From positions 1 to 40,474 of IMG/VR virus record IMGVR_UViG_3300044591_000743: a DNA stretch of 40,474 bases; one strand, given 5' to 3'. The position numbers and the translations under genes are program-made. Origin of the DNA: a virus. Below, in pieces: positions 2,508 through 34,905 of this stretch. Numbering within the stretch: position 1 is the stretch's first letter; each line of letters starts with the position of its first letter. The notes under the pieces were generated by a model that was not told the origin of the DNA, did not search any database, and saw nothing but the letters and a program-made list of their open reading frames with translations.

Positions 2508-4457
2508 ATGAGCGGCGTACTGCACGGCGTTGTTGCGTCCCTGAAGGCGGCTGCTGCTGCGGCTACGGATGCGTTCTTTGAGTACGTTACTCTGCTGTTG
2601 AACACCAGCGCAACCAACGGCGCTCAGAACAACACGTTCCTCGACAGCAGCACCAACAACTTCAGCATCACCCGCAACGGCGACACCACGCAGGGGTCGT
2701 TTAACCCGTACATGCCCAGCGGCTACTGGAGCGGGTATTTTGATGGGACTGATGACCGCCTGACGGTTGCAGACAACGCGGCGCTTCGACCTGGGACTGG
2801 AAACTTCACCATTGAGGCATGGGTGTTCCGCACTGCCAGTGGGGCCGCGCACACCATCTACGCCAAGGGCGGGGCCTCTACGGGCTTTGTTTTCCAGATT
2901 ACGTCTGGGAACTTGCTGCGCTTCACGGACACCACGACAAACATTGACTCCACCGGCACTGTCGCGGCAAACACTTGGGTTCATGTGGCTGTCGTGCGCG
3001 AAGGCACCGGCACGAACCAACTCAAGATCTACATCAACGGCACCAACGACGGTCAGGGTACTGTCAGCACAAACTTTAACCAAACGGAAGAACTGCGCAT
3101 TGGAGAAAACCGTGGCGCAACGGAAGATTTTGCTGGCTACATCTCCAACGTCCGGTTTGCAACGACTGCCGTCTATACCGGAAACTTTACACCTTCCACC
3201 ACCCCGCTGACAGCCATCACGAACACCTCCCTGCTGTGCTTGCAGGACAACCGCTTCAAAGACAACAGCACCAACGCCTTTGCCATCACGCGCAACGGTG
3301 ACACGCGCATCAGCAAGTTCGCGCCGTTCAACCCGCCAGCGTCTTACAGCACGGCCTCGTATGGAGGCAGTGGGTATTTTGATGGGACGGGGGATTACCT
3401 GAGCATTGCGGACTCGGCCACCATCCGCTTTGGCACGGGCACCTTCACCATTCAGGGGTGGGTCTACCGAGGCGCAGCAGGGACCGCGCACACCATAGCA
3501 GCCAAGGGCGGGGCGTCTACAGGATGGGCGTTGCAGATCACTTCAACGAACGTGCTGCGATTTACAGACACGACAACCAACATCGACACCACTACAACCA
3601 TCCCGGCGTCAACGTGGGCGCATGTGGCCGTCGTCAGAACCGGCACCGGGGCCAACGGGCTAAAGCTGTATATCAACGCGGTGGACAGCGCCACAGGCAC
3701 CAGCAGCACAGATTTTAGCCAAACAGACGCGCTGAACATCGGCGCGGATCGGTCCAACGCAAACGCGTTCAACGGCTACATCTCCAATCTGAAGTACACG
3801 GTAGGCACGGCAGAAAGCATTTCTGTCCCCGCGTCTCCGATTACGGGCGGCACGGTGTTGCTGAACTTCACCAACGCAGGCATCTTTGACGCGGCCACGA
3901 TCAACGATGGCCAGACCGTGGGCAATGCTCAGGTCAGCACCACGCAGGCGAAGTGGGGCACGACGAGCATGGGGTTTGACGGGACGGGCGACTGGTTAGC
4001 GTTACCCGGCAGGCCCGAAATGGCGCTAGGGACTGGCGATTTTACTGTTGAGTTTTGGTTTTACAGCAACAGCATTTCTACCACGCAGACTGTTATAAGT
4101 TGCAGAGACCCAGATACGGCAAATTTGGGTTTTGACTGCACATTGTTTGCTTCAAAAACCAACGTGGGGACCGCACTTTCTAATTACATTGTTGGCACAA
4201 CAACGTGGTCTAGCAATACTTGGTATCACAGTGCAATAGTTAGGTCTGGGTCGTCGTTAAAACTATATATTAACGGTACGCAAGAAGGCAGTACGTTTAC
4301 TTTAACTACGCAAAATTTCACAAACAGAATATGGCAAATTGGTAACGGGCCTAATGGCGTATTTAACGGCTACATTCAAGACGTACGCATCACCAACGGT
4401 TACGCCCGATACACGGCTAACTTCACCGCACCCACCGCAGCTTTCCCGACGCTATGA
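2508..4457 (+). CDS. Triple LamG/concanavalin-like tail protein, 649 aa
   Basis: Three copies of a LamG-like jelly-roll domain are visible. They start near residues 78, 285 and 490 with YFDGTDDRLTV, YFDGTGDYLSI and FDGTGDWLAL, each followed by a TGxFTxExW/QGW strand and ending in a YISNV/YIQDVR strand. This fold is known to bind carbohydrate, and phages use it in adhesins, so recognition of the host surface is the likely job. The N-terminal 25 residues may anchor it to the virion. The third domain is encoded by markedly AT-richer DNA (4040-4380), suggesting separate acquisition. The stop overlaps the next start as ATGA. Confidence 0.88.
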   Translation: MSGVLHGVVASLKAAAAAATDAFFEYVTLLLNTSATNGAQNNTFLDSSTNNFSITRNGDTTQGSFNPYMPSGYWSGYFDGTDDRLTVADNAALRPGTGNFTIEAWVFRTASGAAHTIYAKGGASTGFVFQITSGNLLRFTDTTTNIDSTGTVAANTWVHVAVVREGTGTNQLKIYINGTNDGQGTVSTNFNQTEELRIGENRGATEDFAGYISNVRFATTAVYTGNFTPSTTPLTAITNTSLLCLQDNRFKDNSTNAFAITRNGDTRISKFAPFNPPASYSTASYGGSGYFDGTGDYLSIADSATIRFGTGTFTIQGWVYRGAAGTAHTIAAKGGASTGWALQITSTNVLRFTDTTTNIDTTTTIPASTWAHVAVVRTGTGANGLKLYINAVDSATGTSSTDFSQTDALNIGADRSNANAFNGYISNLKYTVGTAESISVPASPITGGTVLLNFTNAGIFDAATINDGQTVGNAQVSTTQAKWGTTSMGFDGTGDWLALPGRPEMALGTGDFTVEFWFYSNSISTTQTVISCRDPDTANLGFDCTLFASKTNVGTALSNYIVGTTTWSSNTWYHSAIVRSGSSLKLYINGTQEGSTFTLTTQNFTNRIWQIGNGPNGVFNGYIQDVRITNGYARYTANFTAPTAAFPTL

Positions 4458-18555: not shown

Positions 18556-18577
18556 TCGCGCTCACCGCGCGATTTCT
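18556..18577. terminator. Weak hairpin at the convergent junction
   Basis: TCGCG (18556-18560) and CGCGA (18568-18572) can pair around a 7-base loop and are followed on the + strand by TTTCTT. The stem is only 5 bp. It lies where the rightward lysis genes meet the leftward operon and overlaps the end of the latter's last gene. Confidence 0.3.
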
Positions 18578-18798
18578 TGTAGCAGGCGCGGGCCTGCTGA
18601 GTAGAAGCGCAGCTTCTTGGTCGCCGCATTGGGGTTGGGCTTAAGTTCGATCTTGACCCAGCCCTTCGTTTCGGCGTATTTGAACGTGCTGTTCACGCTG
18701 TTCCTGTTCACGCCCCAGAGCATTGCGATCTGGTCGCCGGTCAGTTCCGCGCCGGGGTGCGTGGCGAGGTAAACGGCCACGGGAGTGACGAGGCTCAT
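18562..18798 (-). CDS. Small winged-helix-like DNA-binding protein, 78 aa
   Basis: The start at 18798 is chosen because it makes an ATGA overlap with the upstream gene and has AAGGGGG in front. The sequence has a helix-turn-helix look (LTGDQIAMLWGVNRNSVNSTFKYAETKGWV) followed by a basic beta wing (KIELKPNPNAATKKLRFY). A short regulator or DNA-binding accessory protein is likely. It is the last gene of the leftward operon, so it is made together with the helicase and nuclease. Confidence 0.68.
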   Translation of the reverse strand: MSLVTPVAVYLATHPGAELTGDQIAMLWGVNRNSVNSTFKYAETKGWVKIELKPNPNAATKKLRFYSAGPRLLQEIAR

Positions 18799-19016
18799 TC
18801 CTGCCCCCTTGCTCTGATCTTGGCCGCACAAATGCCGGGTATCAACGATAGGCGACTCATGCCCAACTCAATCACTTCGGCATCGCATAACTTCGCACAC
18901 GCTTCGCGCTCGGCAGCGGCGACAAGGTTGGCGAAGAAAATCAGGCGCTCATCTAACGAGCCAAACTCATCAATGCCCGCCTCCCGCGCCATGCGGATGA
19001 TGTCGTCGCGGGTCAT
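18795..19016 (-). CDS. Small phage protein of the 'MTRDDIIRMAREAG' type, 73 aa
   Basis: The start at 19016 overlaps the previous stop (ATGA). The product opens with MTRDDIIRMAREAGIDEF and contains FANLVAAAEREACAKLCD. Short proteins with exactly this layout are widespread in accessory clusters of Burkholderiales phages, and none has a known function that I can name. The Ala/Glu/Arg-rich helix with two Cys residues is the only structural hint. Confidence 0.75.
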   Translation of the reverse strand: MTRDDIIRMAREAGIDEFGSLDERLIFFANLVAAAEREACAKLCDAEVIELGMSRLSLIPGICAAKIRARGQE

Positions 19017-31203: not shown

Positions 31204-31959
31204 TCAGATAGAACGAATTGAAATCACGCGCTTTTCATGCCCGGCAGCATGGTCAGCGATGACGATGCTGCGCGCGGCTTTGCTGGTGCCGGCACACAGC
31301 ATGCAGTCGCTGCACTGGGCCTTGCGGCCGCCCTCAATGCTGGCGGGGCACGTTACCTCAAGGGGTTGACGATCGACCCCGATGCTCACCCTGAAATAGC
31401 GCATCCCCATAGACTGAGCTTGACGGGCTTCGTCGGCGGTATCGGCGGATGCCATCACCAGTGGCGACCATGCGCGCGCGTCAAACCCGTGGGCTTGCCA
31501 TTGGTGGGTGTACCCGACATGCCCGGCACTCAGGGACACCAGTAGCGACCAGAGCTCCACCGGAGCGGCCGCGGGATCACCGTACGTGCCTAAGCGAAGC
31601 TTGCGACCACGCAACACTGCGCGCACTTGGTCGACCGATGATGCGCGCGGATATGACCCGCGACGGTATGCCCGATAGACTGCCAGAACAGACTCCCCGA
31701 CACGGACATAGCACGGCGCATCACCAGTAGCGCGCGCGAGCATTGGACGATGCGGACACAGGCCGCAGACACTTGCGTCATCCCCTGTCTTTACTGCAGT
31801 GTGAGGCTCGACATCGGACCGGATGATGAAGCTTTGCACCAGATCGCCGGTCTTACCATTGGCACTAGACTGGTCAAGCCCCGTGAGGATGACAACAATC
31901 GGCTTGCCATCGATAACGCTGGGGCCATCGTAGACGATAAGGCTGTTAGTGTTTGGCAT
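31204..31959 (-). CDS. Conserved phage protein of unknown function (DUF7227-like), 251 aa
   Basis: The sequence carries features of a protein found in many unrelated phages: GKTGDLVQSFIIRSDVEPHTAVKTGDD, a CGLCPHR Cys pair, CYVRVGESVLAVYRAYRRGSYP, GDPAAAPVELW, GYTHQW and a C-terminal C-x2-C-x2-C cluster (CSDCMLCAG). The Cys pattern suggests a bound metal. I recall the family as DUF7227, from memory only. Conservation among phages and early-type placement suggest a role in takeover of the host, which is not proven. Confidence 0.8.
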   Translation of the reverse strand: MPNTNSLIVYDGPSVIDGKPIVVILTGLDQSSANGKTGDLVQSFIIRSDVEPHTAVKTGDDASVCGLCPHRPMLARATGDAPCYVRVGESVLAVYRAYRRGSYPRASSVDQVRAVLRGRKLRLGTYGDPAAAPVELWSLLVSLSAGHVGYTHQWQAHGFDARAWSPLVMASADTADEARQAQSMGMRYFRVSIGVDRQPLEVTCPASIEGGRKAQCSDCMLCAGTSKAARSIVIADHAAGHEKRVISIRSI

Positions 31960-32063: not shown

Positions 32064-32294
32064 TCAACGCATGTTGATATAGCCGGGCATGCCCACGGCG
32101 CGCGCAAACAAAACCGCATCGTGGCGATTGGCGAGATGCTGTATCAGATACTTGGCACGCTGGACGGCCATGTCACTGTCGGCCAGCGCGCGCTGATAAA
32201 CGTCGGAATCGACTTGCCGGCCAATCATCGGCACATGCGCGCCGATGACGGACTTGAAGGGCTTGGCCATGCGGAGGATTGTTTTAGGGCTCAT
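32064..32294 (-). CDS. Small basic phage protein, 76 aa, first gene of the leftward operon
   Basis: The start at 32294 opens the operon facing away from the terminase genes. The product is basic and helical (SPKTILRMAKPFKSVIGAHV, then RALADSDMAVQRAKYLIQHLANR). A TAGGCTA motif copy (32297-32303) lies immediately upstream of its ATG, where a bound protein would block initiation. No strong ribosome site is visible. The family is not recognised. Confidence 0.68.
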   Translation of the reverse strand: MSPKTILRMAKPFKSVIGAHVPMIGRQVDSDVYQRALADSDMAVQRAKYLIQHLANRHDAVLFARAVGMPGYINMR

Positions 32295-32296
32295 GA

Positions 32297-32665
32297 TAGG
32301 CTACCTATGCGGTTGGTTGGACACAGCACTAATGTAAAACAATGTCGTTCACCCAGTAAAGTGTAGGGTCAAATTGTTAGGCTATGGGGGTGTCTAGAAC
32401 TGCTTAAATCGATAGCCTAACTCTCAAAACGGCCTTACGGGATTGTCGTTAGTTGACTAGAACACTTGGTTTTAGGCGGTTTGAGGCCTCCGATCTAGCC
32501 TTGACGCTAGCCCATCGGATAGGCGGTGTCTGCGCCCGTGCTCACCGAGGGAGATATGCTAGTTAGGCTATCAGATGATCTACCCTTAGGAAAAAGAAAA
32601 AAATACTGTATATATATACAGTACACATACAGTGGCGGCTGGCATGCGCGGTTAGGCGTAGCCTA
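32297..32665. repeat. Five dispersed copies of TAGSCTA
   Basis: Exact copies lie at 32297-32303, 32378-32384 and 32564-32570 (TAGGCTA), and at 32413-32419 and 32659-32665 (TAGCCTA, the other orientation). Copies at 32413 and 32564 share a longer core, AGTTAGGCTATC when read in the same direction. The fifth forms an inverted pair with the TTAGGC at 32652. A 7-base word is expected about 0.1 times by chance here. Confidence 0.75.
32604..32623. promoter_or_regulatory. Perfect LexA (SOS) box
   Basis: TACTG-(TA)5-CAGTA is an uninterrupted 20-bp palindrome, identical to the consensus LexA operator of gamma- and betaproteobacteria (CTGT-N8-ACAG core). An extra ATACAGT half-site follows at 32627-32633. 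It is preceded by an A-rich tract (32591-32603). Binding of host LexA should silence nearby promoters until DNA damage. Confidence 0.85.
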
Positions 32666-32845
32666 GATCGCCTATCGGCCTCATCAACCCGCGTCACCAC
32701 GCAAACCATATGCAATCTAGGCGCATGGCATGGCATAACCTAGATTACCTATGGTCTGGATGCCATGCTGCCCAGGGCAGTGACCCGGATAAGCATGACC
32801 TAATGACCTAGCCGGTAGCCGGGGGCTTGCGGCCAGGCGCCAGAT

Positions 32846-32861
32846 GGGGGGGAGGGGAGGG
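32846..32861 (+). other. G-quadruplex candidate
   Basis: Seven G, A, four G, A, three G in a row can supply four G-runs of at least three with one-base loops. A further five-G run lies at 32821-32825. It is positioned about 120 bases before the terminase gene. Confidence 0.5.
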
Positions 32862-32901
32862 CCGGCGACCTGAGCGGTCAAAAACGAAGGGCTCGCAGAC
32901 A

Positions 32902-32939
32902 ATTTTTATTTTTTAAGGCCACAAACCATTTTTATTTTT
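32902..32939. repeat. Direct repeat of a 12-bp T-rich tract
   Basis: ATTTTTATTTTT occurs at 32902-32913 and again at 32928-32939, 26 bases apart, about two and a half helical turns. Such tracts bend DNA and can serve as UP elements or as sites for host architectural proteins. Confidence 0.7.
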
Positions 32940-32966
32940 GCAAACACAAACGGAAAAAGCTTACGC

Positions 32967-32972
32967 TATACT
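32967..32972 (+). promoter_or_regulatory. Candidate -10 element before the small terminase gene
   Basis: TATACT lies 9 bases before the ATG at 32982, so a transcript started from it would be nearly leaderless. No ribosome site is seen upstream of that ATG, which agrees. A matching -35 at normal spacing is not evident. Confidence 0.35.
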
Positions 32973-32981
32973 CAGATCGCC

Positions 32982-33461
32982 ATGTTCAAGTCGCTCCCGC
33001 TGACCATCCGCGAAGTCAAGGCCACGGAGGCCGTGCTGAACCGCGTGTATGACGCGGCGAAACTGGGTTTGAAGGGCGACAACCTGGCGCTGGCGGCAGG
33101 GTTGTTGCCGAGCGAGTACAGGCGCTTGCGCGAACTGGACCCGATTGCGGAGTTGGCTGAGCAGAAAGGCCGCGCGGATGGCGAGATCGCCATGTCCACG
33201 GTGTTGCATGAGGCGGCAATGAACGGCGACTCCAAGGCGGCGCTTGAGATACTGAAGCACGCTCACGGTTGGGTGGCCAAGCAGCAGGTACAGATTGACG
33301 TGGCGCAGCAGATCAGCATCACGGCGGCGCTTGAGCAGGCGCAGTCGCGGGTGCTGGAACTCGTACATGAGGTGACGGATGCAAGAGCCCCGGTTCTCGG
33401 CGGAACAAGAGCAAAGCTTGATGGCCAGGCTCTGGAGTCCGGCGATAGCGAACGACCCTGA
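32982..33461 (+). CDS. terS: Terminase small subunit, 159 aa
   Basis: Position directly before and overlapping the large subunit is the main evidence. The N-terminal half has a helix-turn-helix look (RVYDAAKLGLKGDNLALAAGLLPSEYRRLREL), as expected for recognising the packaging site. The middle is a helical oligomerisation region (MSTVLHEAAMNGDSKAALEILKHAHGWV), a phrase common to phage small terminases. The C-terminal 40 residues are likely disordered. No ribosome site is visible before the ATG. Confidence 0.82.
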   Translation: MFKSLPLTIREVKATEAVLNRVYDAAKLGLKGDNLALAAGLLPSEYRRLRELDPIAELAEQKGRADGEIAMSTVLHEAAMNGDSKAALEILKHAHGWVAKQQVQIDVAQQISITAALEQAQSRVLELVHEVTDARAPVLGGTRAKLDGQALESGDSERP

Positions 33462-34905
33462 GAAGTTCGTCCTTTTTGCGTTCCCGTGGGGCGAGAACGG
33501 CACGCCGCTGGCCAAGCACAAGGGGCCGCGCGCGTGGCAGCGGCAGGTGCTGCGCGACATCCGCGACCACATCGCCAAGAACGGGTCGATAGATGCGTAC
33601 CAGGTGCTGCGCATGGCCACGGCGTCAGGTCGCGGCATCGGCAAGTCGGCGCTGGTCAGTTGGCTGGTAGTGTGGATGCTGACCACGCGCATCGGCGCCA
33701 GCGTCATCGTGTCGGCCAACAGCGAGGCGCAGTTGCGCTCAATCACATGGGCCGAGATCACGAAGTGGCTGGCGATGCTGATCAACAGCCACTGGTGGGA
33801 GATCAGCGCGACGCGGATCACGCCGGCCAAGTGGTTGAGTGAGATCGTGGAGCGCGACCTGCGCAAGGGCACGCGGTACTGGGGCGCGGAGGGGCGGCTG
33901 TGGTCGGAGGAGAACCCTGACGCCTACGCCGGCCTGCACAACTCAGACGGCGTGCTGCTGATCTTTGACGAAGCCAGCGGCATACCAGACACGATCTGGG
34001 ACGTGGCGCAGGGCTTCTTCACAGAGAACACGCCGCACAGGTTCTGGCTGGCGTTCAGCAACCCGCGGCGCAACCAAGGGTACTTCTACGAGTGCTTCAA
34101 CGCCAAGCGGGCGTTCTGGAACACGCGGCAGATTGACGCGCGCACGGTCGAAGACACGGACAAGAGCGTCTACGAGCAGATCATTGAGGAGTACGGCGAG
34201 GACAGCCCGCAGGCCCGCATTGAGGTCTACGGCGAGTTCCCATCAACAGGCGACGAGCAGTTCATTGCGCCGCGGCTGGTCGATGAGGCGTTCAAGCGCG
34301 CCAAGTACAAAGACCCCGGAGCGCCTATCGTGATCGGCGTGGACCCGGCGCGCAGCGGGGCGGACTCCACCGTCATCGTGGTGCGGCAAGGGCGCGACCT
34401 GGTGGAGATCCGGCGCTACCGCGGCGACGACACCATGACGGTGGTAGGGCACGTCATCGAGGCAATTGAGGACTTCAAGCCCACGCTGACGGTGCTGGAC
34501 GAGGGCGGGCTGGGGTACGGCATCCTTGACAGGCTGAACGAGCAGCGGTATAAGGTGCGCGGCGTCAACTTTGGCTGGAAAGCCAAGAACCAGGTCATGT
34601 GGGGCAACAAACGGGCCGAAATGTGGGGCGCGATGCGCGACTGGTTGCGCACTGCGGCCATCAAAGAGGACCGGCAGCTCAAAACGGACCTGACGGGGCC
34701 GAAAACCAAGCCCGACAGCAGCGGAACGATCTATCTGGAGTCGAAAAAGGACATGAAAGCCCGCGGATTGGCCTCTCCAGACGCTGCTGACGCGCTGGCG
34801 GTCACGTTCGCCTTTCCTGTGGCCTCCCGAGAGCGCGTGGACCGCCCCAGAACGCTTACAATGCGCGACAGAAGCCAAATGTCGGCGAGTTGGATGGGGG
34901 CGTAA
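33379..34905 (+). CDS. terL: Terminase large subunit, ATPase and nuclease, 508 aa
   Basis: The gene starts 83 bases inside the small-subunit gene with GAGGTG upstream. Walker A is ASGRGIGKS (82-90), Walker B LLIFDE (193-198), and the coupling segment WLAFSNPRR follows. The RNase H-like nuclease has GVDPARSGAD (Asp322), VLDEGG (Asp374) and SPDAADAL (Asp468/Asp471). The enzyme drives DNA into the prohead and cuts it. Its type suggests a P22-like podovirus, which fits headful packaging. The stop overlaps the next ATG (TAATG). Confidence 0.97.
   Translation: MQEPRFSAEQEQSLMARLWSPAIANDPEKFVLFAFPWGENGTPLAKHKGPRAWQRQVLRDIRDHIAKNGSIDAYQVLRMATASGRGIGKSALVSWLVVWMLTTRIGASVIVSANSEAQLRSITWAEITKWLAMLINSHWWEISATRITPAKWLSEIVERDLRKGTRYWGAEGRLWSEENPDAYAGLHNSDGVLLIFDEASGIPDTIWDVAQGFFTENTPHRFWLAFSNPRRNQGYFYECFNAKRAFWNTRQIDARTVEDTDKSVYEQIIEEYGEDSPQARIEVYGEFPSTGDEQFIAPRLVDEAFKRAKYKDPGAPIVIGVDPARSGADSTVIVVRQGRDLVEIRRYRGDDTMTVVGHVIEAIEDFKPTLTVLDEGGLGYGILDRLNEQRYKVRGVNFGWKAKNQVMWGNKRAEMWGAMRDWLRTAAIKEDRQLKTDLTGPKTKPDSSGTIYLESKKDMKARGLASPDAADALAVTFAFPVASRERVDRPRTLTMRDRSQMSASWMGA

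Follow-up and report, generated by a model that had tools for sequence, protein, structure and literature searches.

A predicted host LexA operator in the control region of a family of uncultured podophages without detectable lysogeny genes

We analyzed a window of 40,474 nucleotides, comprising the whole of an IMG/VR virus record (IMGVR_UViG_3300044591_000743; an uncultured, freshwater-type phage of 40.5 kb), and found a 20-bp perfect palindrome, TACTGTATATATATACAGTA, that is very probably a LexA operator, as predicted from its bases. The site lies in the early/late control region of the phage, which belongs to a large uncultured family of P22-headed podophages in which neither an integrase nor a CI-type repressor was detected. 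We consider it probable that the box is a true operator for the LexA of the host, kept by selection, through which transcription of the phage and its lytic program would be gated. Because the box keeps its position across a family in which no lysogeny genes were detected, these phages probably read the health of the host through the host's own repressor.

All 20 bases of the palindrome match the ideal LexA consensus (CTGT-N8-ACAG with an AT-rich center), as the original prediction had stated for positions 32604-32623. The window has a single copy of the pattern TACTG-N10-CAGTA, whereas dinucleotide shuffles predict 0.01, in agreement with the earlier view that a chance origin is negligible, and the box is also the sole copy of CTGT-N8-ACAG. 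Its placement in a control region between a leftward operon and the terminase was confirmed as well (Table 1). The LexA-like half-site beyond the right arm is present in the relative L009 and gone from L005 and L008, and is therefore not conserved.

Table 1. Features of the control region and related genes in the window
Feature	Position	Strand	Remark
Winged-helix (MarR-like) protein	18562..18831	-	End of the leftward early operon; candidate iteron reader
Leftward-operon gene, phrog_2554 (unknown function)	31204..31959	-	In close relatives with and without the box
First ORF of the leftward operon	32064..32294	-	76 aa, no family
Non-coding control region	32295..32981	.	687 bp without a convincing gene; iteron-like repeats to the left and right of the box
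TAGGCTA, five copies	32297..32665	32297 +, 32378 +, 32413 -, 32564 +, 32659 -	Flank the box
Predicted LexA/SOS box TACTGTATATATATACAGTA	32604..32623	.	20-bp perfect palindrome, place conserved in relatives
LexA-like half-site ACAGT	32629..32633	+	11 bp (~1 helix turn) past the right arm of the box; read from the sequence
TGACCTA iterons, direct pair	32796..32810	+	
TATACT, candidate -10 of a terminase/late promoter	32967..32972	+	Read from the sequence
Terminase small subunit (TerS) candidate	32982..33461	+	Position and homology to MW202483
Terminase large subunit (TerL)	33379..34905	+	First large gene of the rightward late operon

The leftward operon continues beyond its first ORF with more genes, down to ~30270, and the window further encodes a P22-type portal, a DUF2800 nuclease, a family A DNA polymerase, an SNF2 helicase, and a primase/helicase-like protein with a DUF5906 domain; this gene order is common to the near-complete relatives of 37-39 kb. 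The heptamer TAGGCTA has one further copy in the window outside the control region. Other subgroups carry ACCCCAC/CTACCCC, ATGGGTC, or ATGTGTC in its place, and iteron-like repeats occur in relatives without the box too. These subgroup-specific heptamers (TAGGCTA, ACCCCAC, ATGGGTC, and ATGTGTC) surround the box position both in the window (32295-32981) and in the homologous regions of L034, L023, L032, L044, and L159. The repeats resemble sites for a regulator of the phage, or for a replication initiator, whose specificity has diverged, and the winged-helix protein, which the original prediction had overlooked, is a candidate reader of them. Its positional counterparts (L184:5126-5470, L185:13208-13534, L191:16865-17407, and L249:10718-11107) show that the place at the end of the early operon, beside lysis genes, is conserved while the sequence is strongly diverged; the protein is also a candidate late-gene regulator. 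No match to a known RNA family was found in the control region. L005 carries a tandem repeat of GTGCTGATCGTCA type (~7 copies, ~4360-4450) between the box and TerS that is absent from the window. The start of L183 and the end of L184 (the record behind L040) hold two different versions of one control region at contig ends, which is strain variation at the assembly join of a circular genome.

We then turned to the conservation of the box across the family. Relatives were fetched by TerL similarity alone, blind to the box, which gave 148 distinct upstream regions. A LexA-type box was found upstream of TerL in 38 of these 148 loci, a share that may be somewhat high because box-bearing phages supplied three of the four TerL queries; this bias leaves the position and sequence of the box unaffected. 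Dinucleotide shuffles of the same regions gave a mean of 1.2 loci (range 0-3), and TerL gene bodies contained no such box. Most box matches (34 of 41) lie at about -1000 to -600 relative to TerL, and larger distances are partly due to insertions, e.g., an HNH-like gene ahead of the terminase in L013. This gene, of HNH-homing type, sits between the control region and the terminase, upstream of TerS, and some relatives have it likewise. In IMG/VR, 79 stretches contain the exact 20-mer. About 54 of them come from this phage family, six being recognizable only by TerS or replication genes, and there the box lies in the control region seen in the window, on its terminase side. When nine subgroup representatives were aligned on the box, the 100-bp flanks were 31% and 27% identical, which is chance level between subgroups, and the box was 92% identical. 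The 22 distinct box sequences vary mainly in the center (e.g., TACTGTGTTTATATACAGTA, TACTGTATATCCGTACAGTA, and TACTGTATATATGTACAGTA), and C3, T4, T6, C16, and A17 are invariant among them under an acceptance rule that favors intact arms; constant CTGT/ACAG arms around a variable center are the pattern known for LexA. Nearly all box-bearing members have one box per genome. This conservation at a fixed place indicates selection, as judged from the sequences. The search of related phages that the original prediction had proposed thus found the same box at the same place, and the box is not absent from all close relatives, although several with a TerL 98% identical do lack it.

Within the cluster of the window (TerL 98-99%), the box is present in L005, L008, L009, and others, whereas L010, L011, L012, L013, L014, and L049 carry a different segment in place of window positions ~32368-32718. 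Members with and without the box share the genes of the leftward operon and the terminase side. Since about half of the closest relatives have a different, box-less control segment beside the same genes, the box behaves as a swappable module. No decayed box was found in the box-less members of this cluster; L006 has a distant AACTGTCAGTAAAAACAGTA. Within 5 kb upstream of TerL, no gene tracked the presence of the box beyond lineage. Mapped on the TerL tree, the box must have changed 10 times or more on branches with good support; it has been gained and lost often or has been moved by recombination. It is not essential, because most relatives lack it, including several with a TerL 98% identical. 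Upstream of TerL, the control regions of the box-less L035, L044, and L048 carry other palindromes, GACCCATCGCGCGATGGGTC and GGGTCATGACCC, which are possibly operators for other regulators.

The absence of visible lysogeny genes, noted originally from the open reading frames, held under profile searches for an integrase, an S24 protein, a serine recombinase, and ParA. Neither the window nor any of the IMG/VR relatives searched gave a tyrosine integrase, and the only viral match was in the distant MW202898 (TerL 49%). An S24 protein was missing from all 34 family records scanned, and neither a serine recombinase nor a ParA-type ATPase was found in 36 records. The box-bearing genomes include near-complete ones, namely the window (40.5 kb) and the records behind L040 (38.6 kb), L032 (36.5 kb), L033 (37.3 kb), L264 (41.1 kb), L267 (38.0 kb), and L373 (37.1 kb). 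HTH_3 matches were few and mostly in phages without the box. We therefore rejected an S24/CI repressor of the phage as the reader of the box, since there was no S24 match in these records and the few HTH_3 matches were mostly in box-less phages. A classical integrating temperate phage was discarded on account of the missing tyrosine or serine integrase and CI-type repressor, and a phage-plasmid on account of the missing ParA-type partition gene. Given that these searches of the family gave neither an integrase nor an S24 peptidase, and no serine recombinase or ParA, we see no CI-type repressor as a competitor for this role; a repressor of some unrecognized type may nevertheless be encoded.

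The likely host order is Burkholderiales, an assignment that rests on contigs of metagenome-assembled genomes: cellular contigs with a close TerL belong to a Rhodoferax MAG and a Burkholderiales MAG, with one exception in an Acidimicrobium MAG. In this order, about one third of the sampled lexA loci have CTGT-N8-ACAG (strict motif) just upstream of the gene. Sites with at most one mismatch to the phage box occur in 7 of 121 Burkholderiales genomes (reversed control, 0) and, where examined, precede genes for UmuD (S24 domain) and for an SPL-like radical SAM protein. The earlier claim that the box is stronger than most natural host sites fits this rarity, the affinity itself being presumed. In unrelated phages and prophages, the identical 20-mer stands 16-19 bp ahead of UmuD-type S24 proteins and DinI. 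Ordinary SOS genes have the box at 16-20 bp, next to the start codon, unlike the window, where the gaps to the nearest genes are ~310 bp on the left and ~360 bp on the right. In unrelated phages (L089:10204-10443, L120:321-560, L125, and L130), an ideal LexA box lies 16-21 bp ahead of the start of similar proteins of 79-81 aa; the two proteins that were scanned had no Pfam match, and these proteins are candidate SOS-induced antirepressors. Tandem or overlapping LexA boxes or half-boxes with a common arm were also observed (L107 box 497, L128 box 2422, L088 box 530, and L159 box 4155), and they resemble some colicin promoters.

We further searched for the promoter that LexA might control. No sigma-70 promoter pair was scored in the control region of the window, including over the box and at 32967-32972, the equivalent of which has a -10-like hexamer in relatives as well (TATACT in L005 and TATAAT in L183). 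Among 14 representatives, rightward promoters overlapping the box gave a weak signal (per-locus p 0.02-0.74), with good scores in some subgroups, such as TTGATT-17-TATACT in L126 (p 0.02) and an extended -10 in L047 (p 0.03), and with p 0.74 for the window; leftward promoters at the box were overall no better in the same set. A LexA-gated late promoter is the guess we favor, because the rightward transcript leads to the terminase and the late operon. That LexA regulates phage transcription through the box in one way or another appears reasonably probable from the sequence evidence.

Under this model, LexA on the box would hold down transcription starting in the control region of a phage in an undamaged cell, most likely transcription running rightward, toward the terminase and late genes. 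RecA on single-stranded DNA, arising either from outside damage or from phage replication and nucleases, would trigger cleavage of LexA and lift the block; alternatively, replicating phage copies might dilute LexA. The sequences show the site, how it is conserved, its use at SOS genes in the likely host order, and the lack of the usual lysogeny genes, whereas binding in this host, the promoter, and the physiological result are what we infer. The outcome would be that the SOS state of the host gates or times the lytic program (lytic deferment). The model allows for a longer quiescent period in a carrier state, as the original prediction had suggested, and does not imply it; a lasting state of this kind seems rather doubtful.

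Other roles for the palindrome were weighed against gating by host LexA. The box could act as a sponge that binds LexA and controls no phage promoter, with replicating genomes titrating LexA and inducing helpful SOS functions of the host. Such a role would suit an ideal site, presumably a very strong one, that in the window has neither a clear promoter over it nor a gene closer than 300 bp. But nearly all members have a single box per genome, which amounts to few copies against the LexA pool, and titration does not need a fixed place in the one control region, so we regard a sponge as unlikely. It is also improbable that the phage itself encodes the regulator that reads the box, with a specificity like that of LexA; the winged-helix protein would be an example, and such a reader is less likely than host LexA. 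Although the family has this protein where the early operon ends and the control region is modular, as expected for an immunity region, the protein is found at the same place in the box-less G007 and DSL-LC05, is strongly diverged among phages with an identical box, and the genes beside the box do not track its presence; moreover, the sequence is the LexA consensus, serving real SOS genes elsewhere.

As an AT-rich palindrome among iterons, the box might be a duplex-opening or initiator site of a replication origin, perhaps with LexA limiting replication, and iteron-like repeats on either side that differ by subgroup, together with T-rich repeats ahead of the terminase gene, are compatible with this. 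However, box-less relatives also have iterons, most relatives have no box at all, and an origin element would not need the match to LexA, which makes this explanation quite improbable. Read on the minus strand, the palindrome could form the hairpin of an intrinsic terminator, where the RNA folds at -11.8 kcal/mol (z -4.0) and is followed by UUUUUUU. The stem is AU-rich and fails a terminator scan, the T-tract occurs only in the subgroup of the window while the palindrome is kept in others, and upstream there is no leftward gene whose transcript it could end. A G+C-rich stem and a conserved T-run were thus not found, and a terminator was rejected as highly improbable. Gating by host LexA remains our preferred explanation.

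Several known systems bear on this explanation. The temperate phages 186 and CTXphi carry a LexA box at a defined promoter, whereas in the window no integrase or repressor was detected and the box lies in a gene-free region. Podophages of the Epsilon15/phiV10 type, whose TerL is ~40% identical to that of the window, are temperate, in contrast to the window's family with no detectable integrase or S24 repressor. The closest annotated genomes are DSL-LC05 and Podoviridae ctNMl277 (MW202483), both with a TerL 67% identical; DSL-LC05 shares the winged-helix protein at the same place, and unlike the window, neither has a LexA box before TerL. Host LexA as a phage switch is already established by the tectivirus GIL01 of Bacillus thuringiensis, a non-integrating phage with no repressor of its own, for which host LexA is the lysogeny repressor (PMC4551915). 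There, too, LexA replaces a CI-type repressor, with LexA boxes and an adjacent single half-site in the phage promoter region (PMC4551915), and the window's family likewise has no CI/S24 repressor or integrase that we could detect. The ACAGT half-site was rejected as a counterpart of GIL01 dinBox1b, being lost in relatives with a TerL 98% identical. GIL01 differs as a tailless phage with a 15-kb linear genome, a Gram-positive host, and another LexA motif, as opposed to a tailed 40-kb podophage, and its lysogeny and induction have been demonstrated, with LexA assisted by the phage protein gp7, whereas the present case is known from sequence alone. LexA boxes in phage DNA that tie lytic growth to SOS have been reviewed (PMC9437464), and lytic deferment has been proposed for phages with sites of the host regulators CtrA (alphaproteobacterial phages) and Spo0A (phi29) (PMC9437464). 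These examples are similar in placing sites of a host master regulator at promoters of non-classical or virulent phages (PMC9437464); they respond to a cell-cycle or sporulation signal with binding shown by experiment, whereas in the window the signal would be DNA damage and binding is predicted. By analogy, the present case would work like GIL01 and the CtrA and Spo0A examples. The open papers searched contained nothing specific about this group of phages, nor about LexA boxes of podophages without an integrase.

Phages with neither integrase nor repressor are routinely labeled virulent. If gating by host LexA is true for about one quarter of a large uncultured lineage, this label misses a damage-responsive and possibly deferred lifestyle. 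One could tentatively go further and picture a widespread, purely extrachromosomal podophage lineage, with no integrase or repressor of its own, that has given the lytic decision to host LexA via a single swappable cassette, such that close relatives differ mainly in whether lysis is SOS-gated; the sequences make this conceivable, and we hold it with some doubt. Sister phages with and without the box provide a natural paired comparison for the role of a LexA box in the absence of lysogeny genes. If the model is true, DNA-damaging conditions such as UV in surface water or antibiotics would set the timing of phage lysis with no prophage involved.
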